Assembly (NCBI GenBank): GCA_022824685.1
Contig: JAJDZJ010000121.1
Location: 1-58,465, forward strand
Reading direction: 5' to 3'
Length of the DNA stretch: 58,465 nucleotides
Source: Caldilineaceae bacterium
Lineage (GTDB): Bacteria > Chloroflexota > Anaerolineae > Caldilineales > Caldilineaceae
Below the pieces are notes generated by a model that was not told the DNA's origin, searched no databases, and was given only the letters and a program-made list of their open reading frames with translations. Positions within the stretch are counted from its first letter, which is position 1. Every line of letters begins with the position of its first letter. Both the position numbers and the translations under genes were made by a program. Below are positions 28,340-33,197 of the stretch, in pieces.

Positions 28340-29287
28340 CTATGCCGCCGCCGTCTGCTCCCTGGCCCTTACCGGCTTCCTCGTCCTGGAGAAGAGGGAC
28401 CCTTCCTCCCAGGCAACGACGAGAGGTGTGGCGGTAAAAATTGAGCTGTATGTACCTGAAACCAGGCCGACGATCAGGGTGGCCATGAAGATGCGCAGCG
28501 TGCTTCCGCCAAAGAACAGGATGGCTGCAAGCACCAGGAGCGCCGTTACCTGGGTGGCGATTGAGCGCTGAGCCGTCTCTATAATGCTCCGATTGGCAAC
28601 GGTCGCCAGCGGTTCACCGCGGTGGCGGCGCAGGTTCTCTCGGATTCGGTCGAAGATCACGATTGTGTCGTTGACGCTGAAGCCGATTACAGTCAGTGTT
28701 GCGGTCAGGAAAAGGGCGTCCAGCTCCCAACCTGCGACCAGGTTCATAATCGACAGAAACGAAACTGTAATTATAACGTCATGTACCAGGGCCGCGATGG
28801 CGGCGACACCGTAGCGGAACGGGTGGGAAACTTCCCGGAACGCCAAGGCAATGTAGGCCAGAATCAGGACGGAGGCGGCGATCACCGCGAGCAAGGCGGC
28901 CTGGCTTACCTCCGCGCCGATGGCCGGTCCGATGCTTCGGTAGAGGCGTTCGTCAAATGCGCCGAAGCGATCGACGATTGCTTGTTCGATCACCTCTTTC
29001 TGCGCCATATCGATATTCTTGAATTTGACCTGAACCGTGCGATCATCGTCAACATGGAATGCCTTTGTGTCCGTGAATCCGGCTTCCACAAAGACGCCGC
29101 CCAGCTCTGTCGGCGCCACCGGCTCTTCGAATCGCATCTCCCACTGCGTACCGCCGGTATAGTCTATACTCAGGGGCAGGAGGCCGCCAGTTGAAGAGAG
29201 ATTCCAAAGCACGAAGAGAATGCCTGGCAGAATTCCAAGCAGCGAGATCAAGAACCAGAGCCTGCGACGTTCGACTAAACGATACAT
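28340..29287 (-). CDS. secF: Protein translocase subunit SecF
   Basis: 315 residues from the ATG at 29287 ([15 protein letters not shown]). Family features are [14 protein letters not shown] after the first span, and the clustered C-terminal spans with [20 protein letters not shown] and [17 protein letters not shown]. With SecD it uses the proton gradient to help SecYEG export. It is transcribed directly after secD (118 bases between them). Confidence 0.92.
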
Positions 29288-29405
29288 AGGATTCTCTTTC
29301 CTAATTCTGCCGACACTTGTGGGGTCTGGGAACGCAACCAATGCCGGCTGCGCTCTGAGATTGTCCTTTCAGGTCGAAGCGACCGCGCAACTCTTGGCGG
29401 AGCTT

Positions 29406-30806
29406 CTAATAGCCCAACAACCCGCGACTGCCCAACAGCCTCTCTCCCTGCTGTGAGAGAAAACTGCGCATGAACGTGCGCGTAACAAATACGGCAGTGA
29501 ACATGGACAGCAGCACGCCGACGGACAGTGTGATGGCAAATCCCTTTACAACACTGGCGCCAAAATTGTTGCCAAACCAGTAGAGGACGGCACATGAGAT
29601 CAAGGTCGAGAGATTGCCGTCACGGATTGCGGGCCAGGCGCGGCTGAAGCCCGTTTCCACGGCCAGACGCAAGGAGCGGCCACTGCGCAGCTCCTCCTTC
29701 ATGCGTTCAAAGATCAGGATGTTGGCATCTACAGCCATGCCGATTGAGAGAATAAAGCCGGCGATGCCGGGCAATGTCAGGGTCACTGGCATTAGCTTGT
29801 ACATGGCAAGGTTCAGGGTCACGTAGATTGCCAGGGCCACGGTTGCGAGAAGGCCGGGCAAGCGATAGAGCAGCACCATGAAGAGCAGCACCAAGGCTCC
29901 GCCCACGATCCCGGCCTGCAAGCTGCGGTCGATCGAATCCTGCCCTAGGCTTGCGCCGATCGTGCGTACATCCACGACCTCAAGCGGAACCGGCAGAGCG
30001 CCATATCGCATCTGAATCGCCAGACTTTCCGCTTCCTCCTGCGAGAAGTCACCTGTGATCACCCCGTTGTCGTTGATGGCCGCGTTGATTACCGGGGTCG
30101 AAAGGACGCGCCCATCCAGGACTATCGCCAGAACCTCGCCGATGTTATCGCGGGTGTACGTAAAAAAGTCGCCGCTGCTCTCGCTCTTAAGGTCAAACTG
30201 GATCTGCCAGAAGGTATACTCGTCCTGTGTCGCGACGACAGCCTGCAGAATGTCGCCGGTCATGATCGTCTCGAAGGCTTCTTCCGGGTAGGGAATGGAC
30301 TGTGGGGCAGCCTCTCCGGCGGCAATCGACTCCTGCAAGTCTGTGACCGCGTTAGGCCGGTTGGTCGTATTGATGAAATCATCAGGTCGGACGGGGAATC
30401 CCCCGAGGTCGACGAACTCCAATTGGCCGGTGGAGCGAATTGTTTCGATCGCCTGGTCCGGATTCTTGACGCCGGGCAGCTCCACGATCATCCGGCGCTC
30501 GCCCTGCAACTGAACGGTCGGCTCCGCGAGTCCCAGGCCATTTACTCTCTGCTCGACGATGATTTTCGCCGAATTGAGCGCGTCCTCAGGCAGCGGCTGG
30601 TCTTCGCTGATTTCTGCCTCGAGCAAGACCTGGGTTCCGCCCTTCAGATCCAGCCCCAAGGTGAGGTCGCGGATGTCTCGCTGGGTATCCACACCCGGTG
30701 CCAGGCTTTCTTCCAGCCACACGGGATGGTCGAGAGGAAGCGCGACAAACAGCGATCCCGCGAAGAGGCACAGGATAATGGCTACGTAGATATACTGGTT
30801 CCGCAT
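29406..30806 (-). CDS. secD: Protein translocase subunit SecD
   Basis: 466 residues. The P1 domain opening [17 protein letters not shown] and the membrane motif [30 protein letters not shown] are diagnostic. It partners SecF. A sigma70-like promoter lies about 200 bases upstream, leaving a long leader. No yajC or other sec gene is adjacent. Confidence 0.93.
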
Positions 30807-31012
30807 ATTGGCCCTTTACGATTACACATTTTGCGCCGCGAAACCTGTCCGGGACACCGAAGCTGTTGCAAGCTGTTCCGGCGGCCAGGCGGCGAGAACT
30901 TTGGCGCACAGCGCTGGCGGTCGCCCAATCGGCCGGGCACTGCATAGCCGGCACCCTTAGACCCCTTGGAAGACAGCGAGCAACTGCCCCATACAGGAGC
31001 GCAATCTTATTC

Positions 31013-31041
31013 ATTATATGCATTCAGGCTAACGACTCCAA
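31013..31041 (-). promoter_or_regulatory. Promoter for secDF
   Basis: On the minus strand TTGGAG (31041-31036), 17-base spacer, TATAAT (31018-31013). The predicted start leaves an untranslated leader of roughly 200 bases before the secD ATG at 30806. No known riboswitch was recognised in that leader. Confidence 0.55.
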
Positions 31042-31396
31042 AACCGAAGCCTGTTTTTCGCTCCTACGGCTGTCATTCGGATGAGCGGCAGTTGTAGGAG
31101 CGGGGCGACCTGGCCTCGATGGCGGGAACGAGGGGGGAGCCGGCATCGTCGGCTGGCGCAGCCTTCGCCGCTGCCACTGGCGCTTCCCAAAGCCGAGGGC
31201 GTAAAGGACGAGGGTAGTGGCGTCCGGAATCTTCCTAGCGGTAGATACGGGGAACAACGGCCCAAGAATAGAGGTAAGCGAATGGTCCCGTTTGATCTTC
31301 ATTAGGCCTGGTCGGCCGTCATCGAACGCCTGACCGTTCAGAATGCGGCAAAAATGCAAGGTGGGAAGTGGCGCCTGTTCCCGAACTGTCCTGAGT
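31042..31396. other. Intergenic region, nothing recognised
   Basis: About 350 bases between the secDF promoter and the leader-RNA promoter. Frames on both strands are open but short, low in conserved-looking sequence and without ribosome sites. I see no supportable gene or structure. Confidence 0.4.
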
Positions 31397-31425
31397 TTGA
31401 CAATTGGCCGCAACTGTGAAATACT
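31397..31425 (+). promoter_or_regulatory. Promoter of a small leader/sRNA unit
   Basis: Perfect -35 TTGACA at 31397-31402, 17-base spacer, AATACT at 31420-31425 (4 of 6 consensus). A transcript would begin near 31432, just before the Shine-Dalgarno at 31445. Confidence 0.55.
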
Positions 31426-31460
31426 TGCAGCGTATCTTAAACACAAGGAGGTGATGCCCT

Positions 31461-31520
31461 ATGGATAACTGTAGTCGTAGTACTGGTCCGATAGCATCAC
31501 CTCCGGAGATCGCTCTCTAA
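31461..31520 (+). CDS. 19-residue leader peptide candidate
   Basis: ATG at 31461 follows AAGGAGGTGAT (31445-31455), an 11-base perfect complement to the 16S rRNA tail, with 5-base spacing. The peptide reads MDNCSRSTGPIASPPEIAL and ends in TAA at 31518-31520. Codons 12-15 are the anti-Shine-Dalgarno sequence, so translation would melt the fold that hides its own ribosome site, and a ribosome at the stop would cover the right arm of the 16-bp hairpin. There is no run of one amino acid, so it is not a classical biosynthetic attenuator. Confidence 0.5.
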   Translation: MDNCSRSTGPIASPPEIAL

Positions 31521-31543
31521 GCGATGCTATCGGACCAGAAGCG

Positions 31544-31577
31544 ACAAGGCCCTGCCTTTGGCAGGGTCTTGTATTTT
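31544..31577 (+). terminator. Rho-independent-type terminator of the leader RNA
   Basis: ACAAGGCCCTGCC (31544-31556) pairs with GGCAGGGTCTTGT (31560-31572) across a TTT loop, 13 bp with one G-U, followed by ATTTT. It ends the small unit about 225 bases before the P450 start codon. Confidence 0.7.
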
Positions 31578-31802
31578 CCGGAGCTTAGCCGGCGCCGCAA
31601 TGCCGCCACTGGGTAGGGATCGGAATATCCTCCCAAGTGGGAAGGAGTTTCTGTAAGGTAATCTCCCACTAGCATTGCCATCGTGGTGAAGCGACTTACA
31701 AACAGTCTTTTCCCGTGTTTTCACGTTCAAGTCGCTGGCGTTTGAAAAGCGTCGCAGAATGACGCATAGCGAAGTGGACTGGTTCGAAAAGGAGAAAACC
31801 CC

Positions 31803-33197
31803 GTGACCAGCGCAGTCGCCCCAGTGAAGCGGCGGACGGCGCCGCCCGAAGCACGAGCCCACTGGCTCTTTGGCAATGTCGGACGCCTGAAGCGGGATCC
31901 GCTTGGAAGCATACAGGAGTTTGTATCCGAGGCAGGACCTGCGGTCAAGTACCGGTTTTTTGCCAGCATGTGGGGCTATCTGTTTGTCCACCCCGACCAC
32001 TACCAACATATCCTCCAGGATAACTACAAGAATTTCACGAAGATTCCCCACCCCACCTTCATTCTATTGTATCCACTGGTCGGGAAGGGCCTGCTGAGCA
32101 ATGACGGCGAATCGTGGCTCAGTCAGCGGCGTCTGGCCCAGCCAGCCTTCCATCGGAGTCGGATCCGCGGAATGGGGGAGACCATGACGTCAGCGGCGGA
32201 GCGGCGCTTCTCCCGATGGGAGGCGTTTGTTCGTTCCGGGGACGTTGTCGCATTTGACCGCGAGATCATGGAGTTGACTCTCGAAATTGCCGGCAGGACG
32301 CTGTTCAGCGTCGATCTGACCAACGAGGCCCGCGAAGTCGGCGACACCTTCGGTAGGTTGAATCAGCTATTTGTGAAACTGGTGGTTTCGCCTGCCTCGC
32401 TCTACACAATGAAGGTCCCCTTCTGGCCCAGCACGCGCCGCGTCAAACGCGATATCGACGCGCTTGATCGACTGATCTACGGCATGATTGGTGACAGACG
32501 CGAATCTGGAAACCCAGGTAGCGACCTGATGGGAATGCTGCTGTCCGCGCGCGACGCGGAAACCGGCGAAGGGATGGACGAGAAGCAGTTGCGCGATGAG
32601 GTGATCACCCTGTTGATTGCCGGACACGAAACAACTGCGCTACTTCTCACGTGGTTCTTCTATTGCTTGGCGCAATATCCCGATGTTGAAGCCCAGGTTC
32701 ACGACGAAGTGGACCGAATCCTGAATGGCCGTCTGCCGACGGTCGAGGACATACCCAATCTTGCCTATACGCGCCAGGTGGTTGACGAAACGATGCGTCT
32801 TTACCCTCCAGCGTATGCCCTGTCCCGCTTTGGCAACCGGGACGATGTCGTTGGGGGTTTCGATCTGCCAGAAAAGTCTGTGATAACGCTTAGCCCCTTT
32901 GTCACCCACAGGCAACCTGAGTTTTGGCCGAACCCGCTTGCATTCGATCCCGATCGATTCTCTCCCCAGGCAGCAAAGGGCCGCCATCGCTTTGCCTACA
33001 TTCCCTTCGGCGCGGGGCCCCGTCAATGCATCGGCGAAGGGTTTGCGCTGACCGAAAGTGTTCTGGTCGCCGCAGCGATCGCACAGCGTTTCCGGCTGCG
33101 GAGTCCTGACAACCATGCCGCAGAGTTGGACCCGCAAATCACCCTTCATCCAAAGGGAGGAATGCCTCTGTTCTTCGAATCTCGCCAATCCCAGTGA
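31803..33197 (+). CDS. Cytochrome P450
   Basis: 464 residues from a GTG preceded by AAAAGGAGAAAA. All core P450 elements are there: oxygen-activating I-helix AGHETTALLL (about 273), E-x-x-R in DETMRLYPP (about 329-332), and the haem-thiolate loop FIPFGAGPRQCIGEGFA with the ligand Cys near 408. It should be a soluble monooxygenase needing external redox partners; none is encoded nearby. The closest resemblance by eye is to the CYP4/CYP102-like clade of bacterial P450s. A small structured RNA unit ends 225 bases upstream and may regulate it. Confidence 0.9.
   Translation: MTSAVAPVKRRTAPPEARAHWLFGNVGRLKRDPLGSIQEFVSEAGPAVKYRFFASMWGYLFVHPDHYQHILQDNYKNFTKIPHPTFILLYPLVGKGLLSNDGESWLSQRRLAQPAFHRSRIRGMGETMTSAAERRFSRWEAFVRSGDVVAFDREIMELTLEIAGRTLFSVDLTNEAREVGDTFGRLNQLFVKLVVSPASLYTMKVPFWPSTRRVKRDIDALDRLIYGMIGDRRESGNPGSDLMGMLLSARDAETGEGMDEKQLRDEVITLLIAGHETTALLLTWFFYCLAQYPDVEAQVHDEVDRILNGRLPTVEDIPNLAYTRQVVDETMRLYPPAYALSRFGNRDDVVGGFDLPEKSVITLSPFVTHRQPEFWPNPLAFDPDRFSPQAAKGRHRFAYIPFGAGPRQCIGEGFALTESVLVAAAIAQRFRLRSPDNHAAELDPQITLHPKGGMPLFFESRQSQ

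Follow-up and report, generated by a model that had tools for sequence, protein, structure and literature searches.

A Widespread Chloroflexota RNA Gene in Which an Internal Copy of the 16S Anti-Shine-Dalgarno May Compete with the Ribosome for Its Own Shine-Dalgarno, with Translation Itself as a Possible Signal

The hok-type mRNAs of type I toxin-antitoxin systems fold one way while nascent and another way when complete, and internal pairing withholds the translation of a short open reading frame (ORF). Some small RNAs (sRNAs) carry C-rich seed loops of the anti-Shine-Dalgarno (anti-SD) type. In leader-peptide attenuators, of the trp type or translational ones of the erm type, and in antibiotic-sensing upstream ORFs such as topAI (PMC12121999), translation of a short ORF selects between mutually exclusive helices; for peTrpL, of the Sinorhizobium meliloti trp attenuator, leader products are described as acting in trans (PMC7298713). 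Chloroflexi-1 RNA (RF01698) is a structured RNA candidate from Chloroflexus aggregans (PMC2864571). Here we describe an element that resembles several of these systems, found in a window of 58,465 nucleotides (the whole stretch of Caldilineaceae DNA that was analysed). We read it, with a probability of roughly 0.6, as an autonomous short transcript whose own translation would be gated by a bistable Shine-Dalgarno (SD) switch and reset by the ribosome. The original prediction of a self-contained switch, composed of an SD, a copy of the 16S anti-SD, a competing hairpin, a short ORF, and a terminator, is backed by the comparative data.

The feature in the window is real, and every coordinate first assigned to it is correct: the promoter, the 11-base SD, the 19-codon ORF, the 11-bp pairing, the 16-bp hairpin, and the 13-bp terminator are all present (Table 1). 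The promoter matches the consensus at 10 of 12 positions and was the single match in a scan of 1.2 kb (30800-32000), where 0.4 were expected. The SD, which has 7 copies in the whole 5.2-Mb genome, is complementary at all 11 bases to the 16S 3' end, ...GGATCACCTCCTTTCT; this end was taken from three complete genomes of the same genus by a search with RF00177, the window's assembly having no 16S gene. In the window, elements 1 and 2 form the 11-bp helix P_A, and the two arms of P_B constitute a perfect 16-bp inverted repeat. The terminator stem (31544-31572) includes one G-U pair, is directly followed by ATTTT, and overlaps neither P_A nor P_B; it was missed by a consensus scan because its U-run is short. 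For this segment of the window the minimum free energy (MFE) is -68.5 kcal/mol, whereas shuffled sequences average -41.5 (z = -7.3); none of 200 shuffles was as stable. Its conservation in other genomes takes the feature well outside what chance would give.

Table 1. Positions of the observed and predicted parts of the element in the window
Feature	Coordinates	Strand	Basis
Sigma-70-type promoter TTGACA-N17-AATACT, with TG before the -10 box	31397..31425	+	Promoter scan and conservation in homologues
Predicted transcript of ~145 nt	31432..31577	+	Start inferred from promoter, end from terminator
Extended SD, AAGGAGGTGAT	31445..31455	+	11 bp to the 16S 3' end; kept across the family
Element 1, 5' arm of helix P_A, GGAGGTGATGC	31447..31457	+	
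19-codon ORF, ATG...TAA, peptide MDNCSRSTGPIASPPEIAL	31461..31520	+	132 members have an ORF of 14-22 codons
5' arm of hairpin P_B, CTGGTCCGATAGCATC, overlapping element 2	31483..31498	+	Inverted repeat; compensatory changes
Element 2, anti-SD GCATCACCTCC within the ORF; 3' arm of P_A, first bases also in P_B	31494..31504	+	
Element 3, 3' arm of P_B, GATGCTATCGGACCAG	31523..31538	+	A homologous third element is present in other classes
Intrinsic terminator, 13-bp stem, TTT loop, ATTTT tail	31544..31577	+	Sequence and fold; conserved in homologues

As judged from genome sequences, the element generally occurs in one copy and is distributed widely in Chloroflexota. By blastn it was found in 16 of 17 genomes of the same genus, with one strong site in each, and also in other genera, families, and genomes of the same class. 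When 84,980 species genomes were scanned with a pattern, 62 matches came back, 61 of them in Chloroflexota-type metagenome-assembled genomes (MAGs), including one labelled simply 'bacterium' that matches a genome of the same family, and the remaining one an unrelated Devosia site (L092). The covariance model R1, built from an alignment of 47 sequences (A1), matches 141 of the 199 genomes sampled from the class, and 91 of the 131 that are of high quality. Outside the class it gives weak matches in many genomes; of those inspected, most are homologues with identical layout, and a few (e.g., L178, L212-L214, L217, L218, and L226) lack the anti-SD or seem unrelated. A second model, R2, built from diverged forms without any sequence of the window's genus, matches 93 of the 400 genomes sampled across the phylum, in many families with E below 1e-12, and finds the site in the window (E 3e-5) with no other match in that genome; these E-values are rough, owing to a short calibration, and many of the genomes are MAGs. 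Thus homologous structure, which the original prediction expected in related genomes, is present in them. Many genomes of the phylum match neither model, and therefore the gene is absent there or too diverged. The window's genome holds one site, a second match being its own palindrome, and most relatives likewise have one strong match per genome. The homologues have a common layout: a strong promoter, a AAGGAGGTGAT-like SD, an ORF that contains an anti-SD and ends in a stop codon, then a third element that re-pairs the anti-SD, and a terminator.

Several individual loci are recorded here as observations in their own right. One genome (G396) has two R2 matches, both at E below 1e-18, suggesting two copies, and in two others (G341 and G229) a second R2 match is weak, at E about 2e-4 to 4e-4. 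Four loci of one family (f59: L178, L212, L213, and L214) have an SD and a short ORF whose stop codon lies at the terminator hairpin loop, without an anti-SD; a reduced relative and an unrelated short-ORF/terminator gene are both possible. Highly diverged candidates (L222, L225, and L228 of f61; L216, L170, and L174 of f94; L227 and L181) keep the same SD-ORF start with a different order of the complementary segments, and could represent additional forms of the switch. Upstream of the SD, at a distance of about 14 nt, the Anaerolineae homologues have a conserved CTATCY-like box (31432-31445; A1 columns 3-9), which in the MFE fold of the window forms weak pairs with the SD; in non-Anaerolineae classes a CCGNNNAGG-like box stands in its place.

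The element appears to belong to no catalogued RNA family. A search of the window against Rfam 15 gave no family at gathering score, even at lax E-values, and in 15 diverse homologous loci nothing matched at the element itself, with rRNA, SRP RNA, and tRNA found only elsewhere in these loci. Literature searches turned up no paper whose title and abstract seemed to describe the element. A phage origin was considered and rejected, with 0 matches in two pattern scans of viral contigs.

The two helices are mutually exclusive because element 2 is common to both. In A1, P_B shows two-sided changes at 8 of 13 pairs in 88 cells, and none of 500 shuffles was as good; members of A1 were partly chosen by a search pattern requiring GCRTCRCC, and its cell counts partly reflect this pattern. 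A separate diverged alignment, A4, has two-sided changes at 6 of 10 pairs of P_B, with 0 of 500 shuffles reaching its covariation score. The ten core pairs of P_A form in all 47 sequences of A1, and their variation consists of G-U-preserving changes only. Since A1 alone is without a two-sided change in P_A, and since its members are partly pattern-selected, this helix was tested apart by permutation, comparing the free energy of each SD leader paired with its own ORF and with swapped partners; the test replaced fixed-register counts on alignment A3, where P_A is misaligned by the model for the more distant clades. Native duplexes average -21.0 kcal/mol versus -19.7 (sd 0.13) for permuted ones, and none of 2000 permutations reached the native value; for 68 distinct leaders the means are -21.3 and -19.8, with 0 of 5000 permutations reaching the native one. 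The test ignores tree structure, and neutral drift would not create complementarity. Co-changes in P_A are clade-specific: GCTA/TAGC, GCCC/GGGC, GCGAC/GTCGC (L133), and GCAAC/GTTGC (L192).

In A4, element 2 is compatible with element 1 in 97.5% of cells and fits element 3 in 92.5% (0 of 500 shuffles), the latter tracking it by two-sided changes. Such fitting to element 1 while element 3 tracks element 2 is the pattern expected of a strand with exclusive partners. Thus compensatory substitutions, anticipated in both stems, were recovered, and the comparisons argue for both helices, strongly for P_B and through clade-specific co-change for P_A. The energies of the two differ by a median of 1.0 kcal/mol, and lie within 3 kcal/mol of each other in 65 of 134 cases. 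In the window the balance is tilted towards P_B by about 4.5 kcal/mol, and therefore P_A may be only transient there. P_A is weak in some other members as well: L053 has lost part of the anti-SD, and L169 and L172 stand at -12.8 kcal/mol.

A different use of the same sequence would be that of a trans-acting sRNA, whose ATCACCTCC copy, exposed by the ribosome or by refolding, pairs with the SD of other mRNAs and blocks it. Among internal segments the anti-SD block is conserved best, ACCTC is left in the loop of the P_B fold in Anaerolineae (MFE fold), and the RNA has the looks of an autonomous, self-terminated transcript with a predicted promoter and terminator of its own, as a base-pairing sRNA does. 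An anti-SD seed would match many mRNAs. However, neither fold leaves the anti-SD wholly unpaired, and in the non-Anaerolineae forms, where the third element pairs nearly the whole of it, pairing is almost complete; thus exposure is not the conserved state, and the earlier notion of a free RNA presenting ACCTCC does not hold as the conserved logic. Moreover, element 2 extends past its 16S-like part and matches the flank of its own SD (GC...), which fits an intramolecular partner. We consider the sRNA reading unlikely, though it is the best of the alternatives to an SD switch acting on its own ORF.

This ORF is kept, and its peptide is not. An ORF of 14-22 codons is present in 132 tabulated members (the tabulation took 9-30 codons only, and candidate L038 failed), each with a strong SD, a start codon, and a stop codon, as would suit a dual-function or small-protein gene that has the peptide of 14-22 residues as its product and helices serving only to control how it is translated. 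The N-termini are often M-D/N-x-S-S. On the other hand, the anti-SD lies in all three codon phases (83, 28, and 19 members) and reads, depending on the clade, as ASP, GIT, or HHL; the peptide is therefore not conserved. Its length and C-terminus also vary, and it has no Pfam family at the cut-off. The conserved block of A1 ends exactly at the end of the SD complementarity. In the same alignment, the wobble base of the Pro codon is T in 47 of 47 sequences and the first base of the next codon is C in 46 of 47, both positions lying outside the search pattern; this C alone is required for pairing, and hence the dissimilar residues R, Q, L, and P, which have only it in common, are equally acceptable. 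By this pattern of conservation the constraint acts on the RNA and not on the peptide, and a functional peptide seems to us improbable. The conserved peptide sought after the original prediction was thus not found, and a charged-tRNA sensor, doubted from the start, becomes less likely still because the peptide is re-framed between clades. What is kept is the geometry: in 100 of 130 members the stop codon follows the anti-SD by 13-16 nt, in any frame, just before element 3.

Neighbouring genes bear on the proposal that the element acts on the P450 gene downstream of it. As an autonomous unit with its own predicted promoter and terminator the element is well supported: a promoter with at least 9 of 12 consensus matches lies upstream in 92% of 131 homologues versus 8% of shuffled controls, one with at least 10 of 12 in 88% versus 1%, and a hairpin with a T-rich tail lies downstream in 123 of 131 homologues versus 5 of 131 shuffles. 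A leader or attenuator, regulating the P450 or another downstream gene through read-through, is suggested by the co-directional P450 gene and by the likeness of mutually exclusive helices with a terminator to attenuators. However, the P450 neighbour is confined to the window's genus and one relative. Elsewhere the neighbours are unrelated (AIR synthase-like, SDR, ornithine cyclodeaminase [OCD], CLC channel, histidine kinase, RecN-like, PIG-L, and photolyase genes), and one large group of Anaerolineae loci has tRNA genes together with an HNH gene that runs convergently; in 29 of 87 loci the opposite strand carries the first ORF of 130 aa or longer downstream of the element. In addition, the terminator is separate from P_A and P_B, and in several relatives the P450 gene, read by eye, seems to have its own promoter after the terminator. 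Because the neighbours are unrelated and often convergent, the element is not a P450 leader, and attenuation of any downstream gene is very improbable. A chance palindrome, repeat, or mobile element, for which the perfect 16-bp inverted repeat might speak, has a negligible probability and is contradicted by comparative data, the element being usually single-copy, co-varying, and widespread in the phylum with conserved promoter and terminator.

Some further observations concern the surroundings. Upstream of the element and divergent from it, the window has the SecF and SecD genes (28340-30806, minus strand). In L009, L010, L013, L018, and L032, a TTGACA-N17-TATAAT-like promoter followed by a TTGTGAAnTnATTCaCAA-like palindrome is found 3' of the terminator and upstream of P450, which suggests separate control of P450 by a transcription factor. 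The tRNA cluster beside the convergent HNH endonuclease gene in L040, L044, L045, L055, L074, and L096 includes His, Gln, Phe, Gly, Ala, and Leu tRNAs.

The anatomy of the proposed switch (the family, its autonomy, both helices, the ORF and stop geometry, and the non-conserved peptide) is well supported by comparison of sequences; from it we infer expression, translation, the order of folding, and a role linked to ribosome capacity. In the nascent RNA, element 2 within the ORF would close the SD at element 1, forming P_A. Element 3, once transcribed, would compete for element 2, leading to P_B and freeing the SD, so that only the completed transcript in the P_B state would load ribosomes well. 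A ribosome translating the ORF would have to melt both P_A and P_B and would terminate at the stop codon just past the anti-SD; given ribosome geometry, a ribosome terminating at such a stop would cover elements 2 and 3. After its departure the RNA would re-partition between P_A and P_B, and the signal would be the act of translation, not the peptide. Any output would have to act in trans, since the members have no downstream gene in common and the transcript ends at a terminator of its own; this step is argued solely from the absence of a shared neighbour. The role that we tentatively favour is reporting or buffering of free initiation capacity (30S loading), and the view of the whole family as RNA genes whose internal anti-SD competes with the ribosome for their own SD, with translation itself as the signal, is put forward as equally tentative. 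The likely order of the candidate roles is initiation capacity, then an anti-SD sRNA, then a functional peptide.

Overall, what appears to emerge is an uncatalogued RNA family spread through a phylum. The three-part logic of SD, anti-SD, and anti-anti-SD is normally limited to leaders of regulated genes; here this logic has no target gene attached and is organised around an ORF with a freely changing peptide. If the mechanism is true, ribosome loading would have in the element a natural read-out or sink, and the competition of an RNA with the 16S anti-SD for its own SD could be studied in a compact and testable system.

The element differs from Chloroflexi-1 RNA in that neither RF01698 nor any other Rfam family matches the window or the element in the 15 diverse loci. 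With the sRNAs that have C-rich loops it shares a sequence complementary to SDs; in contrast to theirs, its anti-SD sits in an ORF and pairs with its own SD or with a third element, nor is this anti-SD exposed as a loop in every clade. The proposed folding resembles that of the hok-type metastable mRNAs in the change of fold on completion and in internal pairing over a short ORF, whereas the peptide is hydrophilic and re-framed between clades, not a hydrophobic toxin-like one; on the antisense side, the only promoter-like site found by the scan of 30800-32000 lies on the plus strand. Like peTrpL, whose transcript yields products that can act in trans, the element is a predicted short leader-like transcript with an ORF, and its output would likewise act in trans. 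However, the peTrpL attenuator still precedes its operon and its peptide acts in trans, while the element has neither an operon nor a conserved peptide. Finally, leader-peptide attenuators share with it a short ORF, exclusive helices (1:2 versus 2:3, here with covariation), and an intrinsic terminator at the end. Unlike them, the element has no conserved co-directional downstream gene and no run of regulatory codons in its ORF; neither of its alternative helices is, or controls, the terminator or a downstream SD, and P_A would hide the SD of the element's own ORF.
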